This document shows, in pieces, positions 11,786 through 62,406 of a stretch of DNA of 64,000 nt. The DNA is taken from contig NZ_JAGYHC010000001.1 in the NCBI RefSeq assembly GCF_019837165.1, positions 1 to 64,000 on the forward strand, read 5' to 3'. The DNA comes from Virgibacillus sp. NKC19-3. Its GTDB lineage: Bacteria > Bacillota > Bacilli > Bacillales > Amphibacillaceae. The notes below the pieces were generated by a model. The model did no database searches and had not been told where the DNA came from. It saw nothing but the letters and a program-made list of their open reading frames with translations. A program made the position numbers and the translations under genes. The first letter of the stretch is position 1. Every line of letters starts with the position of its first letter.

Positions 11786-12748
11786 TCATTCCGTTTCAGG
11801 GGCCCTTTCATACAGCCATTCTCCGATTAAAAAATATATCTTTTCAGCGGCTATATTGACGTAATGGGAAATGATTGCATAATCCTGTTCCGATTTGGTG
11901 GATATAAGCTCTCCCCAATATTCTGTCTCATAGCGGCTGATCATGCTTAAATTATATAATAATAAATAATGGACCATGATTTCATTTATAGATAGGTAAT
12001 AGTCGCGGGAACAAGGAAAGTATATTTCTTGTTTATCAAGATGGACGTAAAACGGACCGGTTATATGCTGCAATGGTTTTTCCAGTTTAATATGAAGCCG
12101 GTCATTTGAAGTTTTTATATCCAGCATAGCTGGTAAATAAATACGGAGACGCTGTATGAATGCGGTCTTTGTTAAATGATAGCTATCCAGCAGGTGAAGT
12201 GGAAACGTTATGTTTGTGGCTCCTTTTTTACCGATCGAAATACTTTTTACCTCTTTCCGATAGGAGTAAAAATCATTCATTTCAGGGATTAATCCAAGCA
12301 ATAGATTCATGTTAATCTTTTGGAATGGCGGGGTTTCTGCATGGAATAGGTGGTTGTAGGCATAACAGAATAGACCATTTTGTTGGATTTTCACTTCATC
12401 TCCTGTAAAAGAATAGTTCTTTTTCTTACGTTTTCTGGCCGTTACACCATGCGCCAGGACTGCTGTGGATTCCGGATAATCGGGGCGGTTTGTAAGGAGG
12501 CATGCCTTTAGCAAATGGACGAGGCCATAAAAATATAACATTGGCTTCAACCGAATATCTGCATGCTCCCCTTCTGTTAAAAAAATACTTCCATGATCCA
12601 GGTAATACATAAATGTTCCACTGTTTTCAAAGCTTTTGGCATTTGCATCGCTATTGGGCAGATCCCTGTAGCATTTTTTCAAAAAGATCTGGCTTGTTTG
12701 CAGTGTTCGTAAATAGGTATAAAGTGATTCCACTGTCCTTTTCTCCAT
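11786..12748 (-). CDS. yaaC: YaaC-like protein
   Basis: A 320-residue protein on the minus strand just before guaB, the same place and orientation as B. subtilis yaaC. Family function is unknown. No signal peptide or clear membrane segment is visible. It is rich in aromatic and basic residues, with a KRKKKNY patch near residue 110. Its stop lies five bases from the end of the convergent ATP-grasp gene, with no obvious terminator between them, so the two 3' ends may overlap. Confidence 0.85.
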   Translation of the reverse strand: MEKRTVESLYTYLRTLQTSQIFLKKCYRDLPNSDANAKSFENSGTFMYYLDHGSIFLTEGEHADIRLKPMLYFYGLVHLLKACLLTNRPDYPESTAVLAHGVTARKRKKKNYSFTGDEVKIQQNGLFCYAYNHLFHAETPPFQKINMNLLLGLIPEMNDFYSYRKEVKSISIGKKGATNITFPLHLLDSYHLTKTAFIQRLRIYLPAMLDIKTSNDRLHIKLEKPLQHITGPFYVHLDKQEIYFPCSRDYYLSINEIMVHYLLLYNLSMISRYETEYWGELISTKSEQDYAIISHYVNIAAEKIYFLIGEWLYERAPETE

Positions 12749-12904
12749 GACGATTCTCCTCGTGAAATAATATAAAATTTCGAATCCAATTATTTTTAAG
12801 TATCGACTTGAAAAAGCTTTATGGATGGCGTATTGTAAATGAAAATAAGCATTACTTATGTAGCTTAACCAAGTTGCCTATTCGCATTCATAATTCATAA
12901 TTGA

Positions 12905-14386
<1,482 letters not shown>

Positions 14387-43083: not shown

Positions 43084-43501
43084 TCTCAAGTACATGATAT
43101 GCTGAAATTTATCCAATTGATGTGTCGGAGAGCCCATCTCAAGAACATGATAAAGCTGAATTAGACCCAACCATGTGCTATAGAGCGCGTCTCAAGAACA
43201 TGATAAGGCTGAATTAGACCAATTGATGTGTCGGAGAGCCCATCTCAAGAACATGATAAAGCTGAATTAGACCAATTGATGTGTCGGAGAGCGCGTCTCA
43301 AGAACATGATAAGGCTGAATTAGACCAATTGATGTGTCGGAGAGCGCGTCTCAAGAACATGATAAAGCTGATTAGTCCAATTGATGTGTCGGAGAGCCCA
43401 TCTCAAGAACATGATTAGACTGAAATAGTCCCAACCATGTACTATAGAGCCCATCTCAGGAACATGATAAGGCTGAATTAGACCTAACCATGTACTTGAG
43501 A
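43084..43501. repeat. 53-bp tandem repeat array, eight units
   Basis: Eight direct repeats start at 43084, 43137, 43190, 43243, 43296, 43349, 43401 and 43454. Units are 53 bases, apart from one of 52 and a final partial of 48. Each starts TCTCAAGAACATGAT. The second half has two versions (CCAATTGATGTGTCGG or CCAACCATGTGCTATAG) and the unit joins are either CCCA or GCGCG, so segments look shuffled. The array is bounded by a perfect 13-bp inverted repeat: TCTCAAGTACATG at 43084-43096 and CATGTACTTGAGA at 43489-43501. It is non-coding and between two unrelated genes. Confidence 0.9.
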
Positions 43502-48053: not shown

Positions 48054-48529
<476 letters not shown>

Positions 48530-48687: not shown

Positions 48688-48956
48688 GTCGTGCTAAGCG
48701 GGGAGGTAGCGGTGCCCTGTACTCGCAATCCGCTATAGCGAGGTTGAATTCCCATCCGAGGTGAGGCGTCTTTATGGACTGCCTTATGGGATTGGTGTTG
48801 ACGCTTAGGTCCTGCGCAACAGGAACCCATGAATTCTGTCAGGTCCGGAAGGAAGCAGCAGTAAGTGGTATTTTCTGTGTGCCGCGGGGAAGCCTGGGCA
48901 GAGCCATGAACGTAAGTAACGCGTAGGGACGTCGCATCAACGATGGGTGCACGGCA
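48688..48956 (+). ncRNA. ffs: Signal recognition particle RNA (long Bacillus type, scRNA)
   Basis: About 269 bases, the long form with an Alu domain. The 5' part GTGCTAAGCGGGGAGGTAGC, the middle GTCCTGCGCAACAGGAA and the apical S-domain GTCAGGTCCGGAAGGAAGCA (the Ffh-binding loop) follow the B. subtilis scRNA. The end GGTGCACGGC pairs with the 5' end. It lies after tadA as in B. subtilis. Its own promoter and terminator are visible. Confidence 0.97.
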
Positions 48957-49165: not shown

Positions 49166-49339
49166 TTGGACGAAAATAACCGTCGAAATCGTAATAATGA
49201 GTGCAAAGACCGTAACAATCAAAACGATGTAGACAATGTTGAATTTGCTAATGAGTTTCTTGATGATGTCAATCTGGATCAAGACCATAGCAACGAGCAT
49301 AATTACAATTTTAACAGAAACAATAATCGTAATAGGTAA
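49166..49339 (+). CDS. Small Asn-rich hydrophilic protein
   Basis: A 57-codon ORF starting at TTG 49166, preceded by AAGAGGTG (49151-49158), and followed by a terminator at 49351-49389, so it looks like an expressed unit. The product is nearly all Asn, Asp, Glu and Arg (MDENNRRNRNNECKD, then DNVEFANEFLDD and FNRNNNRNR). The EFANE string resembles the GPR protease site of small spore proteins (EFASE), which is only suggestive. I do not recognise the family. Confidence 0.65.
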   Translation: MDENNRRNRNNECKDRNNQNDVDNVEFANEFLDDVNLDQDHSNEHNYNFNRNNNRNR

Positions 49340-49389: not shown

Positions 49390-49546
49390 GCTTCGTTATA
49401 AAATAGATGTATAAAGTCGGTATTTTTATACTGGTGGCAAGGTTTATTTTAAATATTCTTTCAAATAGATAACAGAAATGTTATGCTATCATTATTGACC
49501 GATAATTTGATTTAATCCGTAAAAAGCGCTTTAGGAGAGAGGTATA

Positions 49547-49975
49547 TTGGTAGTTTATAATGAAAAACAACTATATGAATTATGGGTAAAAGCTTGGAAT
49601 GAAGATATTTCCGTCATTGATAACATAACAAACCCTGGTTGTATTGTTCATTATGTGAGAAGAATGGATGGGAACTCCTTAGGTAATCTAACTGGTGTGG
49701 AAGCGTTGAAAGAGGTGATTAAAGACCGCAATACCTTTTTTAGCAATATAAAGATGACGGTAGAAGTTGGTCCTATCATAAATAAACCATATGTATTATC
49801 GCGTTGGAACCTTACAGGTATTTATAAAGGAGGTATATCAGAAGCCAAAGTGAAGGTTGGGAAGAGAATAAAACTCAAGGGTATGGATCTTTTTTTTATG
49901 GAGAAGGGAAAAATAAAAAACTATTGGTTTTCCTGGGATCGGGCACATCTAATGGAACAATTGAATATGTTATGA
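49547..49975 (+). CDS. NTF2/SnoaL-like fold protein
   Basis: A 142-residue protein with the SnoaL-like pattern: LYELWVKAWNEDISVID, GVEALKEVIKDRNTFF, then a beta-rich half (VLSRWNLTGIYKG, FMEKGKIKNYWFSWD). Such proteins bind or modify small hydrophobic molecules; no reaction can be assigned. The start is TTG at 49547 after AGGAGAGAGGTATA. A MerR regulator gene lies convergent 85 bases away. Confidence 0.75.
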   Translation: MVVYNEKQLYELWVKAWNEDISVIDNITNPGCIVHYVRRMDGNSLGNLTGVEALKEVIKDRNTFFSNIKMTVEVGPIINKPYVLSRWNLTGIYKGGISEAKVKVGKRIKLKGMDLFFMEKGKIKNYWFSWDRAHLMEQLNML

Positions 49976-50060
49976 ATGGTGCAACCGGGGAGTTCCCAGG
50001 TTGCAATGCTTAATAAGGATCCTTTTCTTCCATTGTTTTGAAAGGTTTAAGAAGATATAT

Positions 50061-50438
50061 TCACTCCTTCGCGTTTACAATAGGAGTAGGATAAGATTCT
50101 AATATATTCATTTTCGTTTCTAATTTATCCAATGCATCATCAATGTTCTTTTTTTGCATTTGTAATTTTGTCTTATGATCTTTAAAAATTCGAGTTCTCT
50201 CCTCTAGCGTACTTGATCCTTCCATATGTAGATGAGCCACATGTCTTAACGTTTCAATAGACATATTTGTTTCTCTCATACAACCTATCATTTCTAGCCA
50301 AAAAAGATCTTCCTCTTTAAACATTCGGTAACCGTTTTGGCTTCGTTCTATAAAAGGCAAGAGCCCTTCATCATCATAATAACGAATAGTAGATGGTGAA
50401 ATCGATACTTTATCAGCAGCCTGTTTTACTGTTAACAA
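50061..50438 (-). CDS. MerR-family transcriptional regulator
   Basis: A 125-residue MerR protein. The winged helix-turn-helix is MLTVKQAADKVSISPSTIRYYDDEGLLPFI, followed by GYRMFKEEDLFWLEMIGCM and a C-terminal coiled coil (about 80-115). It lacks metal-binding cysteines at the tip, so it is more like the YraB/AdhR group than a metal sensor. AATAAGGAGGTATTTTTT precedes the ATG. Confidence 0.92.
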   Translation of the reverse strand: MLTVKQAADKVSISPSTIRYYDDEGLLPFIERSQNGYRMFKEEDLFWLEMIGCMRETNMSIETLRHVAHLHMEGSSTLEERTRIFKDHKTKLQMQKKNIDDALDKLETKMNILESYPTPIVNAKE

Positions 50439-50581
50439 AAAATACCTCCTTATTATTTTGATTCATTTTACTTATGTATTTACAAGTTAAGGAACCTATC
50501 ACTAGCTATAATAGTTAATCACCGCCTATATATGTTCATCTTATATCACAGATGAGGGATATTCAAGTTATAAAAAGTTCT

Positions 50582-50734
50582 TTAGTGATCATTGTGATCT
50601 GATTGTTCAAGTGCTATTTGCAATAGATGAAAGATAGCTTGTGTACGAGTTCCAAACCCTTTTAAATCTTTAAAGTAATCTACTCGGTCTAAAAGTGTTT
50701 TGGGAAATCTTAATATGACTGATTGTTTATTCAT
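50582..50734 (-). CDS. Ribbon-helix-helix (CopG/Arc-like) protein
   Basis: A 50-residue ORF with a good site, CGAGGTGAAACA, before the ATG at 50734. QSVILRFPKTLLDRVDYF is the ribbon and first helix, and TRTQAIFHLLQIALEQ the second, typical of ribbon-helix-helix DNA-binding proteins. It could be an antitoxin or a small repressor, but no toxin gene is adjacent. It is the last of three small minus-strand ORFs. Confidence 0.75.
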   Translation of the reverse strand: MNKQSVILRFPKTLLDRVDYFKDLKGFGTRTQAIFHLLQIALEQSDHNDH

Positions 50735-50783
50735 TGTTTCACCTCGATCGTATACAAACTCACTATTTGTGCGAATTTATTTT

Positions 50784-50903
50784 TTATTTTTCTATTTCAA
50801 TACAACGCTTTCTTAATTCCGTTTTTAATAGCTCAATAAATTCAAAGTCCAATTCCAAAGATTTGGCTTCAAAATATGCTTCTATTAATAGCTCATTAGA
50901 TAT
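50784..50903 (-). pseudogene. Sda-like sporulation kinase inhibitor ORF lacking a normal start
   Basis: Read on the minus strand this frame gives ISNELLIEAYFEAKSLEL followed by a FEFIELLKTELRKR segment. That is close to the two-helix Sda protein of B. subtilis (LSDELLIESYFKAT and RDFIELIENEIKRRS, from memory), which blocks sporulation kinases when replication is disturbed. There is no ATG, GTG or TTG in frame; an in-frame TAA lies seven codons before the GAG of NELL. Either the start was lost or a rare start (ATA) is used. Confidence 0.6.
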
Positions 50904-50987
50904 TATGTTAAATTAACACACAACCTTTCTTTTTATTTTTTCAATAAAAGTAAGTTGTATAGACAATGTTGGCAACGATTGTGCCAT

Positions 50988-51140
50988 TCATCTATTGTTT
51001 TTTCGAATAGCTTTTGAAAGAGCCTCACCAACAGTATTAACAGTAGTTGTTTGCTTTGTTTTATTTTGGAAAGGTTCACTGTGATAAATTACTCCATTCT
51101 TGCGCCCTCCTACGTTTAAAGGTTTTTAAATTAATTCCAT
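50988..51140 (-). pseudogene. Small ORF with an in-frame stop after four codons
   Basis: AAGGAGGTCATAA precedes ATG at 51140, which reads MELI and then TAA (51126-51128). The same frame continues for 45 codons (KPLNVGGRKNGVIYH, SEPFQNKTKQTTTVNTVGEA, LSKAIRKNNR) to TGA. The composition looks protein-like. I do not recognise the family. It is either a recent nonsense mutant or a leader peptide with a decayed gene behind it. Confidence 0.55.
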
Positions 51141-51559
51141 TTATGACCTCCTTACAGAAGCGCATCCAGTATAAACCTTCGAGTGTACTTGTAAGCAAGA
51201 GATTTTTGATTGATTTTGTGTAAAAAGTTTAATAAAATGATATACAAAAGATATCTGTGGTGTTATAATAAGGATAACTAAAAAATGATGATACCATACT
51301 TTTGAAGGCTGGATGCGTCATTTTTAAAGTAACAAAATATGGATGACATGATTTCGGGAATGCGATGCTTGTTTTTTGGTCAATTCATAGCCATCGATCT
51401 CTTCTGGTTGAGATTTATGCACCCCCATTTCAGGTCAAGTTTTGTTGCTCTTATGTTTCATTTAAATTATATAGGGCTTGCTGAATACTTTTTATGAAGA
51501 GTTTCGTATTCAGCAGCCTCTATATAAATTCCGAAAGTTACGTTAAAACAATCCGTATG
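51141..51559. other. Gap between small-ORF cluster and amidase
   Basis: AT-rich, 419 bases. GCTGAATAC (near 51479) and GTATTCAGC (near 51510) form a hairpin just after the amidase gene on the minus strand and may terminate it, though no T-run is clear. No gene is supported. Confidence 0.45.
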
Positions 51560-52444
51560 TTATTGATTCAGGTATAAGTGGAGCCCGTCAAGAACACCTT
51601 TAGCTATGTTGTTTTGGTATTCCTTGGTTTTGATAGCTGATAGATCACTAGGATTTGTTATAAAACCTAATTCTAGTAATACACTAGGCGCATTACTTTC
51701 TCGAAGGACATAAAGATCGCTTTGTTTAATGCCACGACTTGCAAGAGGCGTGTTTTGTTCTAATGACGATTGCATTGCATTTGCTAAAGCATCGCTTTTG
51801 GCGCCTGAGTAATAATGTGTTTCTACACCATTTACATCCATAACAGGATGAGAATTAAAATGTAAACTAATAAAAGCATGTGTATTATATGAATTACTTA
51901 TGTACACCCGATTTGGTAAAGAAACAAAGTAATCACTATTTCTTGTCAAAATTACATTCGCTCCTGATTCCTGGAGAATGCTTACTATTTCATCGACTGT
52001 ACTCATAATAATATCTTTCTCAAATTTTCCATTAACAGCCTCTGCACCAGGGTCTGAGCCACCGTGTCCAGGGTCAATAACAATATTATAACCTTCTAAT
52101 GATTGATTATCCTCTTTTTGATGCTCCAAGACGTTGTCTGTTTTGCTATTTTGTTCTGAACCTTTGGATATAGATGCTTTATTTAAATAGTGTAAAGCAA
52201 CCCATGCCTCCTTTCCATCATAATAGGTCTGAGCCCAACCAAAGGATTCCTGTAAGACATTGATTTGATCGCCACTTTGTAATTCACCTATTACTGGTGC
52301 ATTTAGGGATGGAGATGATCTTACATTTAAGTTTGAGTTAGATGTTCCAACCTCATATATTTCCCCATTATCAGCGTCAATCGTCGGAATAATGAAGAGA
52401 AATGAAATGGTTGCTATGATTATACTCGAAAATAAAACTCTCAC
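51560..52444 (-). CDS. N-acetylmuramoyl-L-alanine amidase with SH3 domain
   Basis: A 294-residue secreted wall hydrolase that cleaves the MurNAc-L-Ala bond. A signal peptide covers about residues 1-25. A bacterial SH3 domain follows at about 28-90 (SNLNVRSSPSLNAPVIGEL). Amidase_3 occupies about 115-290: zinc ligands in IDPGHGGSDPGA and LHFNSHPV, catalytic Glu in VLLELGFITNPSD. It starts at GTG 52444 with a weak upstream site. It sits two genes from the surface protein/sortase pair. Confidence 0.93.
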   Translation of the reverse strand: MRVLFSSIIIATISFLFIIPTIDADNGEIYEVGTSNSNLNVRSSPSLNAPVIGELQSGDQINVLQESFGWAQTYYDGKEAWVALHYLNKASISKGSEQNSKTDNVLEHQKEDNQSLEGYNIVIDPGHGGSDPGAEAVNGKFEKDIIMSTVDEIVSILQESGANVILTRNSDYFVSLPNRVYISNSYNTHAFISLHFNSHPVMDVNGVETHYYSGAKSDALANAMQSSLEQNTPLASRGIKQSDLYVLRESNAPSVLLELGFITNPSDLSAIKTKEYQNNIAKGVLDGLHLYLNQ

Positions 52445-53325
52445 AATTTCTCACTCTTTTCCGTATAAAATTATTGGTGAGTACTCACGAAAAACGGGTA
52501 GTACCACGAGCTTTATCCAATCTTTCCTCCCTCCAAGTATATTTAATTTCAATTCTTGCGACTTTCTTGTTGACTATGAACATATGACAAGATTTTCCGG
52601 TTATATATTGTTCTGATTTCAAGTAATTCTCATTTCGCACAAGGAAGTAATAACTATTCCTCTTTCACATTACACTCTAGGTCTGGATGGAATCATCTTC
52701 GTATTGTATGTCTTCCGATTTTCTTAACGCATATGTCGATTTAACACGCTCCATTTCTATCTTGTTATCTATTTACAAATAAAACAAATATATTAAAATT
52801 CCCTACTGTTTTTAATAGTGGGTTTTTGTCTTATTTTGGTATGTTTTGGAGTGATTTTAAATAAAGTAGTTTTAATTAATTGTAATTACTATTATATTCC
52901 ATTTCAATAGTTTTACGTAAAATGAATAAAATGACTGTATTTTTTGACCGGTCATAGGTATAAATTATTATTTCATTTAAATTATTTGAATATATTTGAT
53001 TCAATGGACCTATTTTATTCTAGTTACTTTTGAGTTTTTACATGTTTATTCCAGCAATTTTTAAAATGTTACAAAAACCGCAATATTTGCTATACCTTGA
53101 CAAAATTATGACAGATCATATATGCTACAATTGATAAATACATAATTTCCATATTTTACCTAGATAGGAGGGACTCAACTTTTAATTAATTTAATTTTTA
53201 AGGGGGTGTTAAATGGTCAAATAACAAGGTGTCAATAAATTCATAGGGAGGAGTGATCTAACTAAAAAAGTGTAAGTTAACGTAGCATTTTTCACATAGC
53301 ATTTACATTTTTAGGGAGGTAAGGC
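52445..53325. other. Long AT-rich intergenic region before the surface-protein gene
   Basis: Some 880 bases. A small hairpin CCCTACT / AGTGGG with T-run at about 52801-52830 could be a terminator. No gene longer than about 30 codons has a ribosome site. The last 230 bases are the leader of the surface-protein gene. Confidence 0.5.
53098..53126 (+). promoter_or_regulatory. Promoter of the surface-protein gene
   Basis: TTGACA (53098-53103), a 17-base spacer and TATGCT (53121-53126). It leaves an untranslated leader of about 190 bases containing three SD-like sites (53166, 53199 and 53247) and a three-codon ORF, ATGGTCAAATAA at 53213. Confidence 0.7.
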
Positions 53326-56300
53326 ATGTATAGTTATCTAAAAAGTCAAAGTAGTTATTATGCTAAAATTCTGCTCATCCTTATGTTAATCAGTTCACTG
53401 CTTATAAATGGGTTGATCGCAGAAAGGGTATCAGCAGAAGAAATTATTCAAGAAGATGGAACGGGTTCTTATATTAATCCGGATGATAATCCAATTGAAT
53501 ATGAGGATTCCATCATTTCTAAAGAAGCTACGTATTCCGGGGATCCAGGGGAATACTTTATTGACTTAACTATTGAAGGGAAAGAAAAAGAACAAACAGA
53601 AACTACGGATATTGTTCTTGCCTATGATAACTCCAATAGTATGAGTGAGAATAATAGAGATAGTATTGCTCACGAGGCGACGTCCTCCTTCGTAACGGAT
53701 TTGTTGGATTCAAGTAGTAACGATAATGGAAATACGCAGATGGCATTAGTGACGTTTGGTTCGGATGTATTTGATGGTAGAGTTAATAGGCCTTATGACG
53801 AGGTACCTGAGATTCTTTTCCCAATTTATACAGAAGATCTATCCTATAAAGAATTGACTACTAATTCAGAAGATATTATTAGTCAATTACCTATGGATAC
53901 GCCAGCGGATAGGGATCCAGGGGATGGAAACCTTACAAACAATGGAGGAACATATACACAAGCAGCATTAGAGGAAGCGGAAGCTATTCTAGCAGAGAGT
54001 ACAGCGGATAATAAATATATCTTTACGATTACAGACGGTGTTCCAGTCTTTAGTGAGAACCCAGATGGAGATATAGTAGGTGCAGCAGATTTATATGAAC
54101 CTGGCTTTGAATTTAGTTTTTACTATGATTACAACGGATCGGAAAGAACACACGGCCAGGATACAATTGAAGAAGCTGAAAGAATCCAATCTCAGAATAG
54201 TGATTTTGACTTGTATTCCATAGGTATTGAAACCTCGGAAGATTATGGTGCAAGTGAGGAAGAAGCGATTGAAGTATTGGAGGGGATTTCCTCTTCGCCA
54301 GATCAACATTATGAGGCTTCTGATGTAGAAGAAATCGCTGATATGTTACGAAATTTATCTTCTCCGGTTGTTAATAGTATTAATAATGGTGTTGTTACGG
54401 ACCCAATGGGAGAATTATTTAATTTACAAGTAAGTGACAACGAATTTACGGAAGCAAGTGATGAAACGTTATCGGATGGAGACTACTACGTAACTGGAGA
54501 AATTGACGGTGAGTCTGATCAACAACTAATAGAGACAGTTAATGCTAATGTAGTAGATTCTGATTTATCCGATCAGACGATTCAAGTAGAAGGGTTGAAT
54601 TTGGGTGAAGGTGAACAGGTAAACGTAAGGTATAAAGTCCAGCTTGACACGGGACATGAAGACTATTCTGCTGATACCTATTTCCCAATGAATGAAAGAA
54701 CAACATTACAACCAGAAGGAGATGACGCAGATACACTAAGGGATTTCCCGATACCTGAAGCATTATTGTATGAAGCAGCACCGGTTACAGTGGAACACGT
54801 AGATGAAGAAGGAAACGAACTCGCGCCATCAGAGGATCTAACAGGAAGCATTGATGCTCCGTATGAATCGCAACCAGAAGAGATAGATGGCTATGAATTG
54901 ACCGAAACACCAGAGAACGCAACAGGCGAATTCACAGAAGAGCCACAGACAGTAACGTATGTGTATGCGCCGATAGAAGAAGATGAAGCAGCACCGGTTA
55001 CGGTAGAACACGTAGATGAAGAAGGAAATGAACTCGCACCATCAGAGGATCTAACAGGAAGCATTGATGCTCCGTATGAATCGCAACCAGAAGAGGTAGA
55101 TGGCTATGAATTGACCGAAACACCAGAGAACGCAACAGGCGAATTCACAGAAGAGCCACAGACAGTAACGTATGTGTATGCGCCGATAGAAGAAGATGAA
55201 GCAGCACCGGTTACAGTGGAACACGTAGATGAAGAAGGAAACGAACTCGCGCCATCAGAGGATCTAACAGGAAGCATTGATGCTCCGTATGAATCGCAAC
55301 CAGAAGAGATAGATGGCTATGAATTGACCGAAACACCAGAGAACGCAACAGGCGAATTCACAGAAGAGCCAAAGACGGTAACGTATGTGTATGCGCCGAT
55401 AGAAGAAGATGAAGCAGCACCGGTTACAGTGGAACACGTAGATGAAGAAGGAAACGAACTCGCGCCATCAGAGGATCTAACAGGAAGCATTGATGCTCCG
55501 TATGAATCGCAACCAGAAGAGATAGATGGCTATGAATTGACCGAAACACCAGAGAACGCAACAGGCGAATTCACAGAAGAGCCACAGACAGTAACGTATG
55601 TGTATGCGCCGATAGAAGAAGATGAAGCAGCACCGGTTACGGTAGAACACGTAGATGAAGAAGGAAATGAACTCGCACCATCAGAGGATCTAACAGGAAG
55701 CATTGATGCTCCGTATGAATCGCAACCAGAAGAGATAGATGGCTATGAATTGACCGAAACACCAGAGAACGCAACAGGCGAATTCACAGAAGAGCCACAG
55801 ACAGTAACGTATGTGTATGCGCCGATAGAAGAAGATGAAGCAGCACCGGTTACGGTAGAACACGTAGATGAAGAAGGAAATGAACTCGCACCATCAGAGG
55901 ATCTAACAGGAAGCATTGATGCTCCGTATGAATCGCAACCAGAAGAGGTAGATGGCTATGAATTGACCGAAACACCAGAGAACGCAACAGGCGAATTCAC
56001 AGAAGAACCGCAGACAGTAACCTATGTGTATGCTCCGGTTGAGGACCCCGCCTTCAATGGTGTTGTGTTTGTTGAACATGTTGATCAAGAGGGAAATTTA
56101 CTTGTTAGCACGGAGTCAATTACTGGTCCAACAGAAAGTCCATATGAAACTACATCTGAAGAGATAGATGGCTATGAACTAGTTGAAACACCAGAGAATG
56201 CAACAGGTGAATTTACAAATGATCCACAGACAGTAACCTATGTATATGCACCGGTCGAGGAAACGGGTTCTCCAGTAAACGTAGAACATGTGGATGAAGA

Positions 56301-58131
56301 AGGAAATGAGTTAATTTTACCCGAAGAAGTAACTGGAAATGTAGGGGATCCATATGAGACACAACCTGCAAATATTGGAGGATATGAATTAGTTGAAACG
56401 CCAGAAAACGCAACTGGCGAGTTTGGCGAAGACCCGCAAACGGTAACGTATGTATATACACCAGTTGAAGGTGAGCCACAGGGGACGGTTGTTACTGAAT
56501 ATGTAGATGAAGATGGTAATCCTCTTGTGAGTAGAGATACTGTATCTGGATTAGTAGAGGATCCGTATGAGACGCAACCAGAATATATCGATGGCTATGA
56601 ATTAGTAGAAACGCCAGAAAATGCAACAGGTGATTTTACAGAAGAGCTGCAAACGGTAACGTATATATATGCGCCTGTTGAACAGCCATCAGCGGATAGT
56701 GCTATAGCAATTCAGCATGTAGATGAAGATGGTAATCTAATTGCAAATCCTGATACTATGGCTGGCCCAGCAGGGGAACCATATGAAACCACGCCTGCAG
56801 CAATTGATGGTTATGAATTAATCGAAACACCAGCAAACGCAACAGGCGAATTTACAGAGGAGCCACAAACGGTAACGTATGTATATGCGCCAGTAGAAGA
56901 AGATGAGTCAGCACCAGTTACAGTGGAATATGTCGATGAGGAAGGAAATCCAATCGCAGATTCAGCAGAGTTAACTGGAGATGTTGAAGAGCCCTATGAA
57001 ACCGATCCGGTAAACGTAGATGGTTATGAATTAATCGAAACACCAGCAAACGCAACAGGCGAATTTACAGAGGAGCCACAAACGGTAACGTATGTATATG
57101 CGCCAGTAGAAGAAGATGAGTCAGCACCAGTTACAGTGGAATATGTCGATGAGGAAGGAAATCCAATCGCAGATTCAGCAGAGTTAACTGGAGATGTTGA
57201 AGAGCCCTATGAAACCGATCCGGTAAACGTAGATGGTTATGAATTAATCGAAACACCAGCAAACGCAACAGGCGAATTTACAGAGGAGCCACAAACGGTA
57301 ACGTATGTATATGCGCCAGTAGAAGAAGATGAGTCAGCACCAGTTACAGTGGAATATGTCGATGAGGAAGGAAATCCAATCGCAGATTCAGCAGAGTTAA
57401 CTGGAGATGTTGAAGAGCCCTATGAAACCGATCCGGTAAACGTAGATGGCTATGAACTAGTTGAAACACCAGCAAACGCAACAGGCGAATTTACAGAGGA
57501 GCCACAAACGGTAACGTATGTATATGCGCCAGTAGAAGAAGATGAGTCAGCACCAGTTACAGTGGAATATGTCGATGAGGAAGGAAATCCAATCGCAGAT
57601 TCAGCAGAGTTAACTGGAGATGTTGAAGAGCCCTATGAAACCGATCCGGTAAACGTAGATGGCTATGAACTAGTTGAAACACCAGCAAACGCAACAGGCG
57701 AATTTACAGAGGAGCCACAAACGGTAACGTATGTATATGCGCCAGTAGATGAAGACGAGTCAGCACCAGTTACAGTGGAATATGTCGATGAGGAAGGAAA
57801 TCCAATCGCAGATTCAGCAGAGTTGACTGGAGACGTTGGCGACCTCTATGGATCAATACCAAAAGATGTAGATGGTTATAAATTAGTTGAAACACCGGAA
57901 AATGCAGGCGGTGTGTTTGGAGAGGATGCACAGACGGTAACGTATGTGTATGAAAAAACGGAATCACTAGAAAGTCCTGTGACTAATCCAGATAGTGGTA
58001 ATACTGATTCAGGGCAAACACTTCCGGACACTTCAACGAATATATATAATTTACTATTCATTGGTTTGTCATTATTGGCTCTTGGTACAATGTTAATGAT
58101 GATTTATCAAAGAAAACAGAAACAATCTTAG
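53326..58131 (+). CDS. LPDTS-anchored surface protein: vWA domain + 15 MucBP-like repeats
   Basis: A 1601-residue wall-anchored adhesin candidate. A signal peptide covers about residues 1-37. A von Willebrand A domain (about 90-350) has the metal-ion site DNSNS at 101-105. A linker domain follows to about 484. Fifteen MucBP-like repeats of about 71 residues (about 485-1546) each hold YVDEEGN, a DGYEL and a QTVTYVYAP motif. The C-terminal signal is LPDTS (1566-1570), a hydrophobic helix and KQKQS. LPDTS is the class D sortase motif. The product is very acidic. The repeats are written in near-identical 213-bp DNA units. GGGAGGTAAGGC precedes the ATG. Confidence 0.93.
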   Translation: MYSYLKSQSSYYAKILLILMLISSLLINGLIAERVSAEEIIQEDGTGSYINPDDNPIEYEDSIISKEATYSGDPGEYFIDLTIEGKEKEQTETTDIVLAYDNSNSMSENNRDSIAHEATSSFVTDLLDSSSNDNGNTQMALVTFGSDVFDGRVNRPYDEVPEILFPIYTEDLSYKELTTNSEDIISQLPMDTPADRDPGDGNLTNNGGTYTQAALEEAEAILAESTADNKYIFTITDGVPVFSENPDGDIVGAADLYEPGFEFSFYYDYNGSERTHGQDTIEEAERIQSQNSDFDLYSIGIETSEDYGASEEEAIEVLEGISSSPDQHYEASDVEEIADMLRNLSSPVVNSINNGVVTDPMGELFNLQVSDNEFTEASDETLSDGDYYVTGEIDGESDQQLIETVNANVVDSDLSDQTIQVEGLNLGEGEQVNVRYKVQLDTGHEDYSADTYFPMNERTTLQPEGDDADTLRDFPIPEALLYEAAPVTVEHVDEEGNELAPSEDLTGSIDAPYESQPEEIDGYELTETPENATGEFTEEPQTVTYVYAPIEEDEAAPVTVEHVDEEGNELAPSEDLTGSIDAPYESQPEEVDGYELTETPENATGEFTEEPQTVTYVYAPIEEDEAAPVTVEHVDEEGNELAPSEDLTGSIDAPYESQPEEIDGYELTETPENATGEFTEEPKTVTYVYAPIEEDEAAPVTVEHVDEEGNELAPSEDLTGSIDAPYESQPEEIDGYELTETPENATGEFTEEPQTVTYVYAPIEEDEAAPVTVEHVDEEGNELAPSEDLTGSIDAPYESQPEEIDGYELTETPENATGEFTEEPQTVTYVYAPIEEDEAAPVTVEHVDEEGNELAPSEDLTGSIDAPYESQPEEVDGYELTETPENATGEFTEEPQTVTYVYAPVEDPAFNGVVFVEHVDQEGNLLVSTESITGPTESPYETTSEEIDGYELVETPENATGEFTNDPQTVTYVYAPVEETGSPVNVEHVDEEGNELILPEEVTGNVGDPYETQPANIGGYELVETPENATGEFGEDPQTVTYVYTPVEGEPQGTVVTEYVDEDGNPLVSRDTVSGLVEDPYETQPEYIDGYELVETPENATGDFTEELQTVTYIYAPVEQPSADSAIAIQHVDEDGNLIANPDTMAGPAGEPYETTPAAIDGYELIETPANATGEFTEEPQTVTYVYAPVEEDESAPVTVEYVDEEGNPIADSAELTGDVEEPYETDPVNVDGYELIETPANATGEFTEEPQTVTYVYAPVEEDESAPVTVEYVDEEGNPIADSAELTGDVEEPYETDPVNVDGYELIETPANATGEFTEEPQTVTYVYAPVEEDESAPVTVEYVDEEGNPIADSAELTGDVEEPYETDPVNVDGYELVETPANATGEFTEEPQTVTYVYAPVEEDESAPVTVEYVDEEGNPIADSAELTGDVEEPYETDPVNVDGYELVETPANATGEFTEEPQTVTYVYAPVDEDESAPVTVEYVDEEGNPIADSAELTGDVGDLYGSIPKDVDGYKLVETPENAGGVFGEDAQTVTYVYEKTESLESPVTNPDSGNTDSGQTLPDTSTNIYNLLFIGLSLLALGTMLMMIYQRKQKQS
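54778..56055 (+). repeat. 213-bp tandem repeats, block A (six copies)
   Basis: Six copies start at 54778, 54991, 55204, 55417, 55630 and 55843, exactly 213 bases apart and nearly identical at the DNA level. Each encodes one 71-residue MucBP-like unit of the VEHVDEEGNELAPSEDL type. Confidence 0.95.
56911..57960 (+). repeat. 213-bp tandem repeats, block B (five copies)
   Basis: Five copies start at 56911, 57124, 57337, 57550 and 57763. The first four are nearly identical, the last diverges in its second half. Each encodes a VEYVDEEGNPIADSAEL-type unit. Four more diverged units lie between blocks A and B (56056-56910). Confidence 0.93.
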
Positions 58132-58178
58132 TTTGATCCTCTTAAGAGAGGAGTGTTCCCTCCTTTTTATAAATATAA

Positions 58179-58215
58179 AAGAGTATTAACCAAATAAGGT
58201 TAATACTCTTCTTTC
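58179..58215. terminator. Terminator between the surface-protein gene and the sortase gene
   Basis: A perfect 13-bp stem AAGAGTATTAACC (58179-58191) / GGTTAATACTCTT (58198-58210) with flanking A and T runs. It can stop both convergent genes. A weaker hairpin, GAGGAGTGTTCCCTCC followed by TTTTT, precedes it at about 58148-58168. Confidence 0.88.
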
Positions 58216-58287
58216 ATCACAGTACAACTGGCTGTAAGACCTCCACTTCAAGAATAGAGGAAATGTTTACGCTCTCAGTTATATAAT

Positions 58288-58893
58288 TTAGTTTGCACTC
58301 TCTTCGTTTATCGGATATGCATAGGTAACAAAGCGCTCAGGGGCGCTGCCAACATAATGAAAAGGATAACAAGTGGTCACTACAAGAACTTCCTCTCCCA
58401 TTTCTCTAATGACCGAAGTATCATCTTCAGGTACAATTTCTGTTTCCCTAATCTCGTAAGTATAGGTGCCATAAGGCATATTGACAGTAAATTCATCCCC
58501 AATTTCAAGATTACCAAATTCACGAAAAACGGTGTCGCGATGTCCGGATAATACTATTTGTTCCCCTTGTCCAGGAAAAACGGAATTATTTAAATGACCA
58601 ACGCCTTTATCGAGGGAATCAGGGTCTGTTCCAGAAACGACCGGTAACGTTTTGTCTAATTTAGGTATTTCAAGTGTTGCGAATGATTCACCTTTATTCG
58701 TTTTAAAATTATCGGAAGCCTCTTCTTCGCTACTATTTTCTATATGGTTTTCCTTTTCATCATCCATATTAATTCTTTGGTTTGCTTCCGTTAGCGCGTG
58801 TTTTTCATTATTTTCCATTTTATAAAATTGATAGCTAAATATACCAATGAGTATTATTCCTACAAGTATTAAAATCTTGCCAATTGATTTCAT
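58288..58893 (-). CDS. Class D sortase
   Basis: A 201-residue sortase. An N-terminal membrane anchor (about 5-24) is followed by a charged linker and the catalytic beta-barrel. The catalytic His is in VLSGHRDTVF, the Cys in VVTTCYPF and the Arg in APERFVTYAYP. Class D enzymes use LPDTS-type signals, exactly what the convergent surface protein carries, so the two form a substrate-enzyme pair. AAAGGAGATAATAA precedes the ATG. Confidence 0.95.
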   Translation of the reverse strand: MKSIGKILILVGIILIGIFSYQFYKMENNEKHALTEANQRINMDDEKENHIENSSEEEASDNFKTNKGESFATLEIPKLDKTLPVVSGTDPDSLDKGVGHLNNSVFPGQGEQIVLSGHRDTVFREFGNLEIGDEFTVNMPYGTYTYEIRETEIVPEDDTSVIREMGEEVLVVTTCYPFHYVGSAPERFVTYAYPINEESAN

Positions 58894-59341
58894 TTATTAT
58901 CTCCTTTTCAAGTAGGATGAGTAAACAAGCATATATAAGTTACTACTAAATAATAGCAAAATTATGGAAAGTTTATATTAAGATTACCATATTTGAAATC
59001 ATATTCATATATTATATCCCATTTTCGCAGATTTAAAATATTGTCTATATATAAACTGTAGCATTGCATCACCGTGTAGATCGTATATCAGATGAAATTG
59101 AACAAGCAATCAAATCGTATATATGGTATGCGTTGAGGATGAAAGTCTTCTTTAAAAATGAAGGAAATCTGTACCGGTAGTATACCAGTTACTGGTCTTT
59201 AGTACTACGCCTTTCTGCCATGAACCTTGAGTTTGTCATACCTGCTGGTGTATTCATTTCTATGGGTAAAGATGTATTACGATTAAACCAGCCTTTGTTC
59301 ATGAATGTAATATCGAAGTAAAAGCTGAGAAAAAATAACTG
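58894..59341. other. Gap between sortase and gntR with possible decayed coding sequence
   Basis: On the plus strand two stretches read like protein without a start: HHRVDRISDEIEQAIKSYIW (near 59066-59128) and EFVIPAGVFISMGKD (near 59229-59275), in different frames with stops between. I do not recognise either. They may be remnants of a lost gene; no intact gene is seen. Confidence 0.35.
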
Positions 59342-59398
59342 TTTACATTAAAGCATTATTATAGTATAGTTGATTACACGACTAATCAACTAATCAAC
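59342..59398 (+). promoter_or_regulatory. Promoter and operator of the gntR-ABC operon
   Basis: TTTACA (59342-59347), a 17-base spacer and TATAGT (59365-59370). GTTGATTA (59369-59376) and TAATCAAC (59383-59390) form a perfect inverted repeat, and a second TAATCAAC follows directly (59391-59398). This is positioned for autorepression by the GntR protein. Confidence 0.8.
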
Positions 59399-59416
59399 CT
59401 TAGGGAGGGTCATTAT

Positions 59417-59785
59417 GTGAGGGCTGTTTTAGATGACTCAAGGCCCATCTTCCAACAAATATCTGAAATGATAGCCGATGATATTGTTGAAGGGGAGTTA
59501 CAAGAAGGGGACCAAATTCCATCTACTACGGAAATTTCGAAATTTTACCAAGTCAATCGTGCGACAGTGCAAAAAGGATTATCGATGCTCATTGATGCAG
59601 GTTATGCTTATAAACAGCGCGGTGTTGGGGTTTTTGTAGCCAGAGGGGCAAAAAGCCAGTTGTTGGAGAAACGTAAAGAAGACTTCCAGATTCAATATAT
59701 ACAACCAATGCTGGAAGAAGCAAAACGACTTCAAATGACAAAGGATGAAGTTATTCAATTCATTAGGAGGGACAATGATGTTTAA
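59417..59785 (+). CDS. GntR-family regulator, YtrA subfamily
   Basis: A 122-residue repressor with the N-terminal winged helix (PIFQQISEMIADDIVEGEL, PSTTEISKFYQVNRATVQKGL, GVGVFVARGA) and only a short C-terminal helical tail, as in YtrA-type regulators of ABC operons. It starts at GTG 59417 after AGGGAGGGTCATTAT. It overlaps the ABC ATPase gene by eight bases. Confidence 0.93.
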   Translation: MRAVLDDSRPIFQQISEMIADDIVEGELQEGDQIPSTTEISKFYQVNRATVQKGLSMLIDAGYAYKQRGVGVFVARGAKSQLLEKRKEDFQIQYIQPMLEEAKRLQMTKDEVIQFIRRDNDV

Positions 59786-60659
59786 TATACAAGATATCTG
59801 GTTTTCCTACGAGAACAAAAACGTTCTAAAAAACGTTAGCTTGCGGGAAGACGAACCGATCATCACTGGATTATGGGGACGCAACGGATCCGGAAAAACA
59901 ACAATCATGAAGTTGATTTCAGGGTTGGAAAAACCAAATCAAGGAAATATCAGCGTAAACGGAATTACACCGTATAACAATAGTCAAGCAATGAATCACG
60001 TCACTTTCATGCAGGAAGATCATCCCTTTTCCGATTTATGGGATGTCGAGGATGCACTCCGCTTTGGTGCTTATTTCAATGAAAATTGGGATCAAGCATT
60101 AGCTGAAAATTTGATAGACCTTTTTGAGCTGCCAAGGCAAAAGAAAATCAGGCATTTTTCAAAAGGAATGAAAACCATGATTAAGATTACGCTGGGGCTT
60201 GCTTGTAAGGCGCCTGTAACCATCATGGATGAACCTTCAAATGGTCTTGATGCCTATATGCGCAAACAATTTTATGATGTACTGTTGGATACGTACGAAG
60301 AAGATCCGCGATTAATTATGTTATCGACACATCATATCGAAGAACTGGAACCACTTTGTGAAAAAATCGCAGTAATCGATCAACAAACCGTCGTACGGTA
60401 TGAAGAAACAGAGGACTTAAAAAAACAAGGAGTGCACTTAAGTGGCACCGTTGAAGCAGTAAAATCAGTGATTGGAACTAGCCGGGTCATTGACGAACGA
60501 AAACTGGGGAAACAATTAAATGTTATGATTGACGATTTTCTCGGTGCAGGCTTGGAAGCAAAGGCAAAAGAAGCAGGCGTTACTATTGAAAAAGCACCAC
60601 TTCAAGATTACCTTGTGAATCTTACAAAAAAGGGGGCAAACAAACATGAACACGCTTAA
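59778..60659 (+). CDS. ABC transporter ATP-binding protein
   Basis: A 293-residue ATPase when started at the second of two adjacent ATGs (59775, 59778) after AGGAGG. Walker A is GRNGSGKTT, the signature region is HFSKGMKTMIKITLGLA and Walker B is VTIMDEPSNGLD. The C-terminal 80 residues are a small accessory domain. It is likely an exporter or membrane-sensing ABC with the next gene. The overlap with gntR suggests coupled translation. Confidence 0.92.
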   Translation: MFNIQDIWFSYENKNVLKNVSLREDEPIITGLWGRNGSGKTTIMKLISGLEKPNQGNISVNGITPYNNSQAMNHVTFMQEDHPFSDLWDVEDALRFGAYFNENWDQALAENLIDLFELPRQKKIRHFSKGMKTMIKITLGLACKAPVTIMDEPSNGLDAYMRKQFYDVLLDTYEEDPRLIMLSTHHIEELEPLCEKIAVIDQQTVVRYEETEDLKKQGVHLSGTVEAVKSVIGTSRVIDERKLGKQLNVMIDDFLGAGLEAKAKEAGVTIEKAPLQDYLVNLTKKGANKHEHA

Positions 60660-61350
60660 AGGGCCATTTCGGCTTATCATGAAAGAAATGAATCTAACCT
60701 TTTATATTAATATTGGTGTAACGCTCGCTTTAATGGCATTGTTTACCTTTTTGAGTTACTTTAATGTTGCAAATGAAACGTTAGGTATAACTTTTGGACC
60801 TATTTATGCCATTTTCCTTGCCTATCCATTTATCCTTTTTAAAGGGTATAAATATATTCTTTCTTTAGGAGGGACGAGAAAACAATTTATGCTTGTGACT
60901 TTTCTATCTGCCGCTATTTATATTGTGCTAAGCGCGATTATTTTGAATGGATTGTATTTCTTAAGTCCACTTCTCTTCAATGAAGGAGAGCTCTTCCACA
61001 TGGCTGACCTCGTTAACGGTTCTCAACCGCTCCTGTATTTCTGGGTAGATGTATTATGGATGTTCATTCTCTTCGGTTTTGCAATGATGATACAAGCCAT
61101 TTATTTTAACCTTGGGGGAGCAAGGACTTTAATTGGCGCTGCGGCATTGTTAATGATGGTACTTGTTGCAGTCTTTTTTGCTGATCTGACGCCACTCATA
61201 GAGTTTATATTTACGGACCATCTTTTGTTTGTTCACATCCTTGCTGGTATATCGCTAATATTCATGTCTCTCTCCTACCTCATTATGCGAAATGCACCTT
61301 TGGAACGCGGAGATAGAAAGATTATCAGACTGCAGCCAGCAGCAGATTAA
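60646..61350 (+). CDS. ABC transporter permease-like membrane protein
   Basis: A 234-residue protein with about six hydrophobic helices (for example AMMIQAIYFNLGGARTLIG near the fifth). No soluble domain is seen. It overlaps the ATPase gene by 14 bases and completes a GntR-ATPase-permease cassette of the YtrABC type. The substrate is unknown; such cassettes often respond to cell-wall antibiotics. A short hairpin AACGGGG / CCCCGTT lies at 61354-61373. Confidence 0.85.
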   Translation: MNTLKGPFRLIMKEMNLTFYINIGVTLALMALFTFLSYFNVANETLGITFGPIYAIFLAYPFILFKGYKYILSLGGTRKQFMLVTFLSAAIYIVLSAIILNGLYFLSPLLFNEGELFHMADLVNGSQPLLYFWVDVLWMFILFGFAMMIQAIYFNLGGARTLIGAAALLMMVLVAVFFADLTPLIEFIFTDHLLFVHILAGISLIFMSLSYLIMRNAPLERGDRKIIRLQPAAD

Positions 61351-61418
61351 ATGAACGGGGTAGAGTCCCCGTTTACATAGGTATAGTGTTCATATTCAGC
61401 TCTCTAAGAGGGGGGATT

Positions 61419-61817
61419 TTGATAAACACCCAAATTTCATATACAAGAGTTACGTTGGTTATTATAATTACTTTTATTATATCCTTTGCGTCGTACCAGT
61501 ATACAATACAAAGAATACATCACAACGCTTCGGATAATATACCAGATAATTATACAATAATAGAAGGATATATAGTGGCCAAAGAGTTCGGACAATTAAG
61601 AGTAGGCAATGAACCAATTAGTATGTGGGCAAGACTAACTGGAATTATTACTTCTAACTATAATCCGGAAATTATTATAGTTAGCAGCCATAGTAATTCT
61701 AACAACTATATATTAAAAGGGTTTAATTACAACCAAAAAGTTCGCATATATGGTGATAATCTTAAAGAATCATTTCCTCCAAGAGTTTCAGCGTATTACA
61801 TTGAAAAATTAGAGTGA
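61419..61817 (+). CDS. DUF3221-like small extracytoplasmic protein
   Basis: A 132-residue protein starting at TTG 61419 after GAGGGGGGAT. One N-terminal membrane helix (about 8-27) is followed by a beta-rich domain: IIEGYIVAKEFGQLRV, then KVRIYGDNLKESFPPR and SAYYIEKLE. This resembles the DUF3221/YobA pattern (GYIV-x-K, then G-x-KV-x(n)-ESYP). The role is unknown. It lies 68 bases after the permease gene and may be part of that operon. Confidence 0.65.
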   Translation: MINTQISYTRVTLVIIITFIISFASYQYTIQRIHHNASDNIPDNYTIIEGYIVAKEFGQLRVGNEPISMWARLTGIITSNYNPEIIIVSSHSNSNNYILKGFNYNQKVRIYGDNLKESFPPRVSAYYIEKLE

Positions 61818-62406
61818 AAAAATGAATCGGTGCCCGATGGTACATTTTCTTATACGATGGTGGGGGTTTAAATGGATGACCATATTTGCCTACTGGTCTA
61901 AGATGATTATATATGAACGCACCTAAGTCATAGGCTAAAACACCCTGTCATTGCATGTATAAATAGCCGGTTCATTACCACAGTGTTTTTAACTGTGGTA
62001 TCTTTGTGCGATGGATAGTCGCACCTAGCTAGGGTAAACACGACTCAGAACATCCTGGAAGGTATGTCATCTCGGCGGTGAAAGACCTCCCGCTAGAGTG
62101 CTGATACAACTGGTGAAGGCTAATTTAGTTGCCAATAAAGTGACCATTTCTTCCATTGTCGCTCTGAAGGGTGTGGATTTCCATTTTCCACAATGGTCGG
62201 TTATTCCAATTTGGTAGTATTGGGCTGTGCCCTTTGTCAATCAGGTTCGATTCACCTTTTTATCACCCTCCACCTGATTGATCCACATAAATGACTCCAA
62301 AAAAGGCCACCACCAAACTTTCGTAAATGTTTTACCCTTAAGGTTCACATTTACACCCGATATCGGGTATAATTACGGGGAGAGATCCTAAAGGGGAAAA
62401 TATATT
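61818..62406. other. Gap before dnaX, possible mobile-element remnant
   Basis: About 590 bases without a gene. GTGCGATGGATAGTCGCAC (near 62008) followed by GGCGGTGAAAGACCTCC (near 62074) resembles the 5' end and core of a group II intron domain I, but no intron-encoded protein or 3' end is present. A hairpin AATCAGGT / ACCTGATT lies near 62240-62280. Confidence 0.35.
62344..62373 (+). promoter_or_regulatory. Promoter of dnaX with a palindrome in its spacer
   Basis: TTCACA (62344-62349), an 18-base spacer and TATAAT (62368-62373). A perfect 14-bp palindrome ACCCGATATCGGGT (62355-62368) fills the spacer and touches the -10 box, an operator-like arrangement. Confidence 0.75.

Follow-up and report, generated by a model that had tools for sequence, protein, structure and literature searches.

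Does a sortase encoded next to a surface protein serve that protein alone, and where did such a pair come from? The question is raised by a locus in Virgibacillus sp. NKC19-3, lying in a stretch of 64,000 nucleotides (positions 1 to 64,000 of contig NZ_JAGYHC010000001.1) that we refer to as the window. An earlier note, made from the sequence alone, had described there a large surface protein and a convergent class D sortase, and had taken them for a dedicated adhesion system. Both genes were found as claimed (Table 1). The reading that we prefer, with a probability of about 0.6, is that they form an imported adhesin-sortase cassette, in which a pilus-tip-type head is carried on a MucBP stalk, and that the sortase probably also serves resident substrates.

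The 1601-residue protein begins with a signal peptide, recognized by eye, that would direct its export, and continues with a head, 15 MucBP domains and an LPDTSTN sorting signal. Pfam matches comprised VWA/VWA_2, GBS104-like_Ig and 15 MucBP stretches, in line with the vWA head and the repeat number given in the earlier note. The LPDTS signal that it had reported begins at residue 1566, and the NCBIfam LPxTATN sorting-signal model NF058670 matched residues 1566–1597 with 41.0 bits, against a cut-off of 32. We propose that the protein would act as a single-chain, wall-anchored, metal-dependent adhesin.

Table 1. Positions of the features discussed. Plain numbers refer to the window; G000 is the window's own genome, and L numbers are loci from other genomes.
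Feature	Position	Strand	Basis
Pilus-tip-like stand-alone adhesin, MucBP stalk, 1601 aa	53326..58131	+	ORF, Pfam, NCBIfam
Signal peptide, about residues 1-37, cut near VSA/EE	53326..53438	+	sequence, by eye
Ig domain, first strands, isopeptide lysine K66	53473..53604	+	alignment to 2ww8, 3txa
vWA domain, metal site D101-S103-S105-T209-D237, short arms	53605..54372	+	Pfam, structure comparison
GBS104-like Ig domain, part 2, catalytic D359, isopeptide N456	54379..54762	+	PF21426, alignment
15 MucBP repeats, units of 70-72 aa, last one cut	54781..57954	+	TRF, Pfam
LPDTSTN sorting signal, hydrophobic stretch, positive tail	58021..58128	+	NF058670 over cut-off
Hairpins between convergent genes	58132..58212	.	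fold z -2.5
Terminator-like stem, 15 pairs	58177-58212	read on -	weak
Class D sortase, 201 aa, His118, Cys175, Arg187	58288..58893	-	NCBIfam models, catalytic residues
Block missing here from the two genus-mates; flanks are scr with a small coat-like gene, and dnaX	49411..62293	.	
MerR-like regulator in block; homologs in two other genera, close to sub-clade sortases	50061..50438	-	
SH3 + Amidase_3 amidase in block; homologs in two other genera, close to sub-clade sortases	51560..52444	-	
Other LPxTA-type signal, 394-aa protein without Pfam match	G000:C1 856408		
Other LPxTA-type signal, 2134-aa Cna_B/Collagen_bind adhesin	G000:C1 373951		
Other LPxTA-type signal, nuclease/5'-nucleotidase	G000:C1 1387920		
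Acid phosphatase, weak IPDTAS signal below cut-off	G000:C1 3729574		
LVLMTCYPFFSLT sortases	L113:17400-18035, L115:16224-16820, L129:10458-11105, L130:6863-7456, L131:11988-12608		

A domain search of the head went beyond the naming in the earlier note: the head belongs to the pilus-tip type of RrgA and GBS104, in which a vWA domain interrupts an Ig domain that forms an isopeptide bond. It matched PF21426 with 94.3 bits, over the cut-off, and phmmer aligned it with RrgA (2ww8, E = 2e-41) and GBS104 (3txa, E = 2e-37) in two blocks flanking the vWA arm region. The adhesin-like character proposed for the head was thereby borne out. A model of the head was predicted from a 13-row alignment (mean pLDDT 77, pTM 0.63). 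With this model, the top solved structures in Foldseek were GBS104, RrgA and SpaC (E = 2e-29 to 1e-27), followed by PitA and Mfa5, and VIA-align 2 gave Z scores of 24.5–26.3 across its first six rows. The fit was good with the vWA part of GBS104 (3tvy; Z = 26.3, rmsd 2.8 over 240 residues) and loose with whole RrgA (2ww8; Z = 26.2, rmsd 12.1 over 410 residues) and whole GBS104 (rmsd 12.6 over about 410 residues); values for whole SpaC (6m3y) were Z = 24.8 and rmsd 4.4 over 376 residues. Because superposition of the whole head on RrgA and GBS104 was loose (rmsd 12–14, TM-scores 0.26–0.46), the relative placing of the head domains stays unsettled.

In line with the metal-binding head of the earlier note, the metal site was complete, and its five residues (101, 103, 105, 209 and 237) were identical in all 13 aligned heads, as were K66, D359 and N456. 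In the phmmer alignment, read by hand, the latter three align with K188, D597 and N692 of 3TXA, i.e., the isopeptide triad of PF21426 as given in the available text of PMC12617251. Judged by this correspondence, the head should lock itself through a Lys66-Asn456 isopeptide bond. At position 455, just before the isopeptide Asn, the window head has Met, whereas 11 of the 13 heads have Thr and one has Ser.

RrgA, GBS104 and SpaC are tip adhesins of sortase-built pili. The window head shares with them the metal site and two marks of tip pilins, i.e., the vWA domain inserted in the PF21426 domain and the Lys-Asp-Asn triad. Unlike them, it is trimmed, carries a class D type signal and has no pilus genes beside it, the locus containing no pilus operon with a backbone pilin and pilin-type sortases. 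Landmark spacing revealed neither the long N-terminal part nor the long vWA arms of tip pilins, the latter described in the available text of PMC7835359. The metal site is preceded by 97–105 residues in 14 heads of the sub-family to which the window head belongs, versus 429 and 1382 residues in two pilus-type proteins, and the TDG-to-DP spacing was 108–123 in the 11 of these 14 heads where our script located both landmarks, versus 229 in one pilus-type protein. According to the same text, RrgA and GBS104 seem to project the vWA domain to ligands, presumably on host cells, which may not apply here.

The facing gene was confirmed as a class D sortase. It scored 201.2 bits with the class D model NF033746 (cut-off 165) and 238.6 bits with the "class D, LPxTATN-specific" model NF058671 (cut-off 140), and in a profile search that might have placed it elsewhere, its scores with the models for classes E, C and GN all remained below their cut-offs. 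The catalytic His, Cys and Arg were all present, and its best match among solved sequences was 2ln7. Going by its class, the enzyme would cleave after the Thr of LPDTS and link the adhesin to peptidoglycan. An LPDTS signal suits class D, as the earlier note had stated: in the available text of PMC3222306, surface display of Bacillus subtilis YhcR (LPDTS) and YfkN (LPDTA) depends on YhcS (SrtD), and a fusion bearing the YfkN signal was hardly displayed. The two window genes converge across a gap of 156 bases that contains hairpins; nothing points to a single transcript, and co-expression is not implied. Evidence for a terminator is weak, because there were 2 terminator-like sites in 7.2 kb versus 3.9 expected by chance; a promoter scan near the two genes returned 18 sites versus 23.9 expected by chance.

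That the sortase is dedicated to the adhesin, the pair being a closed system, now seems to us rather unlikely. The two genes do neighbor each other, and a sortase adjoined four of the nine related heads sequenced on both sides, far above chance by our own estimate for three sortase genes in 4 Mb. However, every sortase found in the genome, three in all, is an intact class D enzyme, and there are four or more signals that match this class: four of LPxTATN type exceed the cut-off, and a fifth is weak. In the system described in PMC3222306, moreover, two different substrates depend on the one YhcS for display, as far as its available text goes.

The genus supplies a further argument against a dedicated pair. 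In both genus-mates (G153 and G154), a sortase of the same sub-clade directly adjoins an LPDTATN surface protein of 1649 or 1680 residues, which in G153 has endonuclease/exonuclease, metallophosphatase and 5'-nucleotidase domains. The window's genome keeps an ortholog of this nuclease (78%–79% identical) with no intact sortase beside it. What adjoins it instead is a sortase relic, in which the 3' third of the gene known from the genus-mates survives at about 71% DNA identity (E = 7e-24, G154), with two recognizable protein pieces in different frames; the rest is deleted, and both flanks are colinear. Of six other stretches of the genome used as controls, five gave no match and one matched over 51 bases, within the sortase gene that this stretch itself carries. 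Since the resident sortase has decayed and the signals are shared, the imported one probably handles resident LPDTATN substrates too, although the decay may have come about independently of it, the genome having two more class D sortases.

A relative of the block sortase was present in 147 of the 159 family genomes; those with 58%–71% identity were a minority among the matches listed. The nearest (G074) was 71% identical, and the closest genus-mate copies 57%–60%. In a tree of 31 rows the window sortase grouped with that of G074 (support 98/90); this grouping was starred there, and unstarred in a reduced tree from which six long rows had been dropped and 25 kept (91/91). AU tests, on clades chosen after the first tree had been seen, rejected a clade of the window sortase with those of G153 and G154 (p = 3e-45) and weakly rejected a wider clade adding G053, G055 and G056 (p = 0.033). 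The block sortase is of the same sub-clade as the genus's nuclease-linked sortase, and is not its ortholog.

The adhesin and sortase genes probably came in together on a block of about 12.9 kb. In the window's genome scr ends at 48954 and dnaX starts at about 62407, some 13.5 kb apart. The site is variable: of 12 relatives compared, eight have a gap of 0.1–1.2 kb, the genus-mates have gaps of 2.4 and 3.4 kb, and two more reach 7.0 and 10.6 kb. With a range of 0.1 to 13.5 kb among the 12 relatives and the window's genome, the interval is a possible insertion hot spot. DNA similarity to G154 ended at 49410 and resumed at 62314, and similarity to G153 ended at 49333 and resumed at 62294. The interval in the genus-mates contained other DNA, with no similarity to the block, and a search there with eight block proteins (the sortase among them, the adhesin not) gave no match at E ≤ 1e-8. 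No integrase or transposase was seen among the block ORFs when the list was inspected by eye. Among the loci compared, both G074 and G046 have homologs of the MerR-like regulator and the SH3-amidase close to their sub-clade sortases, which suggests that these genes formed a linked module earlier on; the G074 locus also contains a surface protein ending in LPDTAAG.

That the block is missing here in the genus-mates, like the pilus-tip type of the head, had been overlooked in the earlier note. As side observations, a protein of 584–607 residues adjoins the sub-clade sortases in G074 and G046 (L055:9089-10843, minus strand, without a Pfam match; L066:120-1943, plus strand), and, among the matches listed, similar C-termini occurred near sub-clade sortases in at least G090, G088, G073 and G135. 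The tadA gene (48069-48404, plus strand) is shortened by a frameshift in a G run, its remainder lying in another frame; because tadA is normally essential, this may be a sequencing error. A tandem array of 53-bp units (43084-43493, 7.6 copies by TRF) lies between acyl-CoA synthetase-like and flavohaemoglobin-like genes, named by eye.

The same comparison could be read as loss, i.e., the block would be ancestral to the genus and lost in both genus-mates, and the two sub-clade sortases would be old paralogs. This account could draw on the small number of genus-mates compared, two, and on two other relatives that also have a long scr-dnaX interval. We nevertheless consider it quite unlikely, in view of the unrelated DNA in the genus-mate interval and of the sortase tree. 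Heads outside pilus operons, moreover, occur in five of the 159 family genomes, and among 397 genomes sampled from the order the window's own was alone in giving a head match at E ≤ 1e-30.

We surveyed such heads more widely. PF21426 matched in 16 of the 159 family genomes, in 14 of them over the cut-off; our counts of context omit G115 (34.1 bits, over the cut-off) and three matches under it, those in G051 and G156 and an additional one in G101. Among the 13 family genomes with a match at E ≤ 1e-18, seven (G055, G114, G139, G140, G141, G142 and G146) have the head in an operon of pilus type that also encodes an LPxTGG protein and two sortases, and five (the window's own, G065, G101, G112 and G123) have it outside such an operon; the thirteenth, G113, was left unassigned, its contig being 3.6 kb. 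The window adhesin was the sole PF21426 match of its genome, and neither genus-mate had a match anywhere. A scan of named genomes yielded 15 loci, of which 12 were of the sub-family (four of them coinciding with G065, G123, G101 and G112) and three pilus-type. With the window and a protein found by a plasmid protein search, on pKRIBB-KS-1-1 of Planococcus maritimus (L121), the sub-family totals 14 heads. No recent donor was identified, because the closest aligned head was only 56% identical to that of the window.

Around these heads, stalks, signals and neighbors differ. The stalk consists of MucBP repeats in the window, of Cna_B, DUF7507 and MucBP domains in O. bengalensis, S. halophilus and the Planococcus plasmid (at least two MucBP in S. 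halophilus, whose gene contains a masked or unresolved run), and of DUF7507/DUF11 repeats in Shouchella. Signals comprise LPDTSTN, LPKTATD, LPDTATD, LPNTATN, LPQTATN, LPxTG and LVQT[A/S]NN. The four heads with an adjacent sortase are those of the window, the Shouchella and Ornithinibacillus loci (L113 and L115) and the plasmid (L121). No adjacent sortase was found for L107, L110, L112, L114 and L116, with at least 1.4 kb seen downstream, in a scan that used the window sortase as query, recovered pilus-operon sortases and could miss class A; all four LPxTG heads (L110, L112, L114 and L116) fall among these five. The other 5 of the 14 heads (L106, L108, L109, L111 and L117) are limited by their contigs, and a pilus or sortase neighbor is possible there. 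In L108 a 665-residue protein with an LPTTA-like end lies directly upstream of the head, and in L114 an LPDTG protein lies about 3.4 kb upstream. The plasmid protein comes close to the window adhesin, with a head of the same family (42.5%), 22 MucBP repeats, an LPQTATN signal and an adjacent sortase. It differs in the codirectional arrangement of the pair and in its extra Cna_B and DUF7507 domains, and its sortase, 38% identical to that of the window, scored over the LPxTATN-specific cut-off and just below the general class D cut-off.

The repeats of the window adhesin form a tandem array whose TRF score of 2705 shows that it is not due to chance. Repeats R1–R5 are 96%–100% identical in DNA and R11–R14 97%–100%, two near-identical blocks which point to a recent change in stalk length; R7–R10 and R15 are 61%–80% identical to the others. 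We propose that the 15 acidic repeats would stand in for a pilus shaft and raise the head off the cell. Alternatively, the repeats themselves might bind mucin-like glycans, the vWA head being accessory, and all 15 stretches do pass the MucBP model. This appears very unlikely to us, since among relatives it is the head that is conserved and the stalks that vary, and since near-identical DNA in two blocks is what would be expected of length-changing stalk units. Annotation as a class 1 internalin, InlJ, was rejected: the score with NF033187 was 1295.9 bits, below the cut-off of 1700, with its best stretch in the MucBP repeats, which account for the high raw score.

The extreme acidity reported for this protein is real (25.4% D+E and 1.7% K+R, with 0.5% K+R in the stalk), but in negativity the adhesin ranks second, not first, among 106 ORFs of at least 200 residues from the window and seven other stretches of the genome. 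The median pI over these ORFs was 5.3, unlike that of a salt-in proteome. We rejected acidity as proof of a saline habitat, the other sampled ORFs being about equally acidic. Among 12 named genomes bearing such heads, three have halophile or halotolerant names.

Despite the head fold, it is extremely improbable that the adhesin is a pilus tip or minor pilin, since there is no pilin-type neighbor or second sorting-signal protein beside it in the window (ORF list read by eye), versus 7 of 13 family heads in pilus-type operons, no other PF21426 protein in the genome, and no sortase found there outside class D. A phage origin was rejected as well: when 50,697 phage records were searched by tblastn with the head, one record matched, at 26% identity. 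This record (OR846644.1, positions 11854-13083), an unannotated 15-kb entry filed as an Enterococcus phage, encodes a head of the same type.

The Ornithinibacillus sortase led to a distinct subtype. It had relatives in 4 of the 397 order genomes (E ≤ 1e-50) and in 1 of the 159 family genomes (two matches). Seven such sortases were inspected, and five (L113, L115, L129, L130 and L131) carry LVLMTCYPFFSLT around the active Cys. All five adjoin a substrate ending in LVQT[A/S]N, in which Val replaces the Pro of LPxT: LVQTANN at three loci, LVQTSNN at one and LVQTSNG, on a convergent gene, at one. The two more distant sortases (L132 and L133, 42%–47% identical to the query) had no LVQT protein and lie near LPETG and LPDTATN proteins. 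The substrates at L113 and L115 carry the vWA head, and those at L129 and L131 lack it. Scores were obtained for four of the five sortases, and every one fell below 165 with the class D model, and three also below 140 with the LPxTATN-specific model; the substrate signals at L129 and L131 scored about 20.6 bits, against the cut-off of 32. No description of an LVQT sorting signal was found in the titles and abstract openings given by a search of the open-licence literature. More tentatively than for the window itself, we suggest that pilus-tip heads may travel pilus-free across Bacilli, rewired in stalk, signal and often sortase, including the LVQT[A/S]N subtype, and that in the window's genome the imported sortase may have taken over the resident class D pathway, so that the resident gene was left to decay.

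Most of what we describe is a mix of known parts, since both the head fold and class D sortases with LPDTS/LPDTA signals have been published. The available text of PMC3222306 and PMC3617157 covers class D sortases whose substrates carry LPDTS/LPDTA or LPXTA signals and are often encoded by neighboring genes; the latter source includes adhesion proteins among the LPXTA proteins of Bacillus cellulosilyticus and, in that text, discusses mostly enzymes. The window pair resembles the YhcS, YhcR and YfkN system and the B. cellulosilyticus proteins in sortase class, signal type and the neighboring substrate. It differs in that its substrate is adhesin-like, where the available text of these two sources deals mostly with enzymes, and in that its sortase and the nuclease-linked copy of the genus are not orthologs. 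As far as a search of the open-licence literature shows, in whose titles and abstract openings no stand-alone vWA/GBS104-type head on MucBP repeats was described, the combination of parts and the proposed sortase displacement are new.

If the preferred reading of an imported cassette is right, the locus ties a class D sortase to an adhesin instead of an enzyme. The related heads suggest that pilus-tip heads function without pili in a range of Bacilli. The intact imported sortase, the resident relic and the retained resident substrate together make a clean natural case for asking how strict the pairing of sortase and substrate is.
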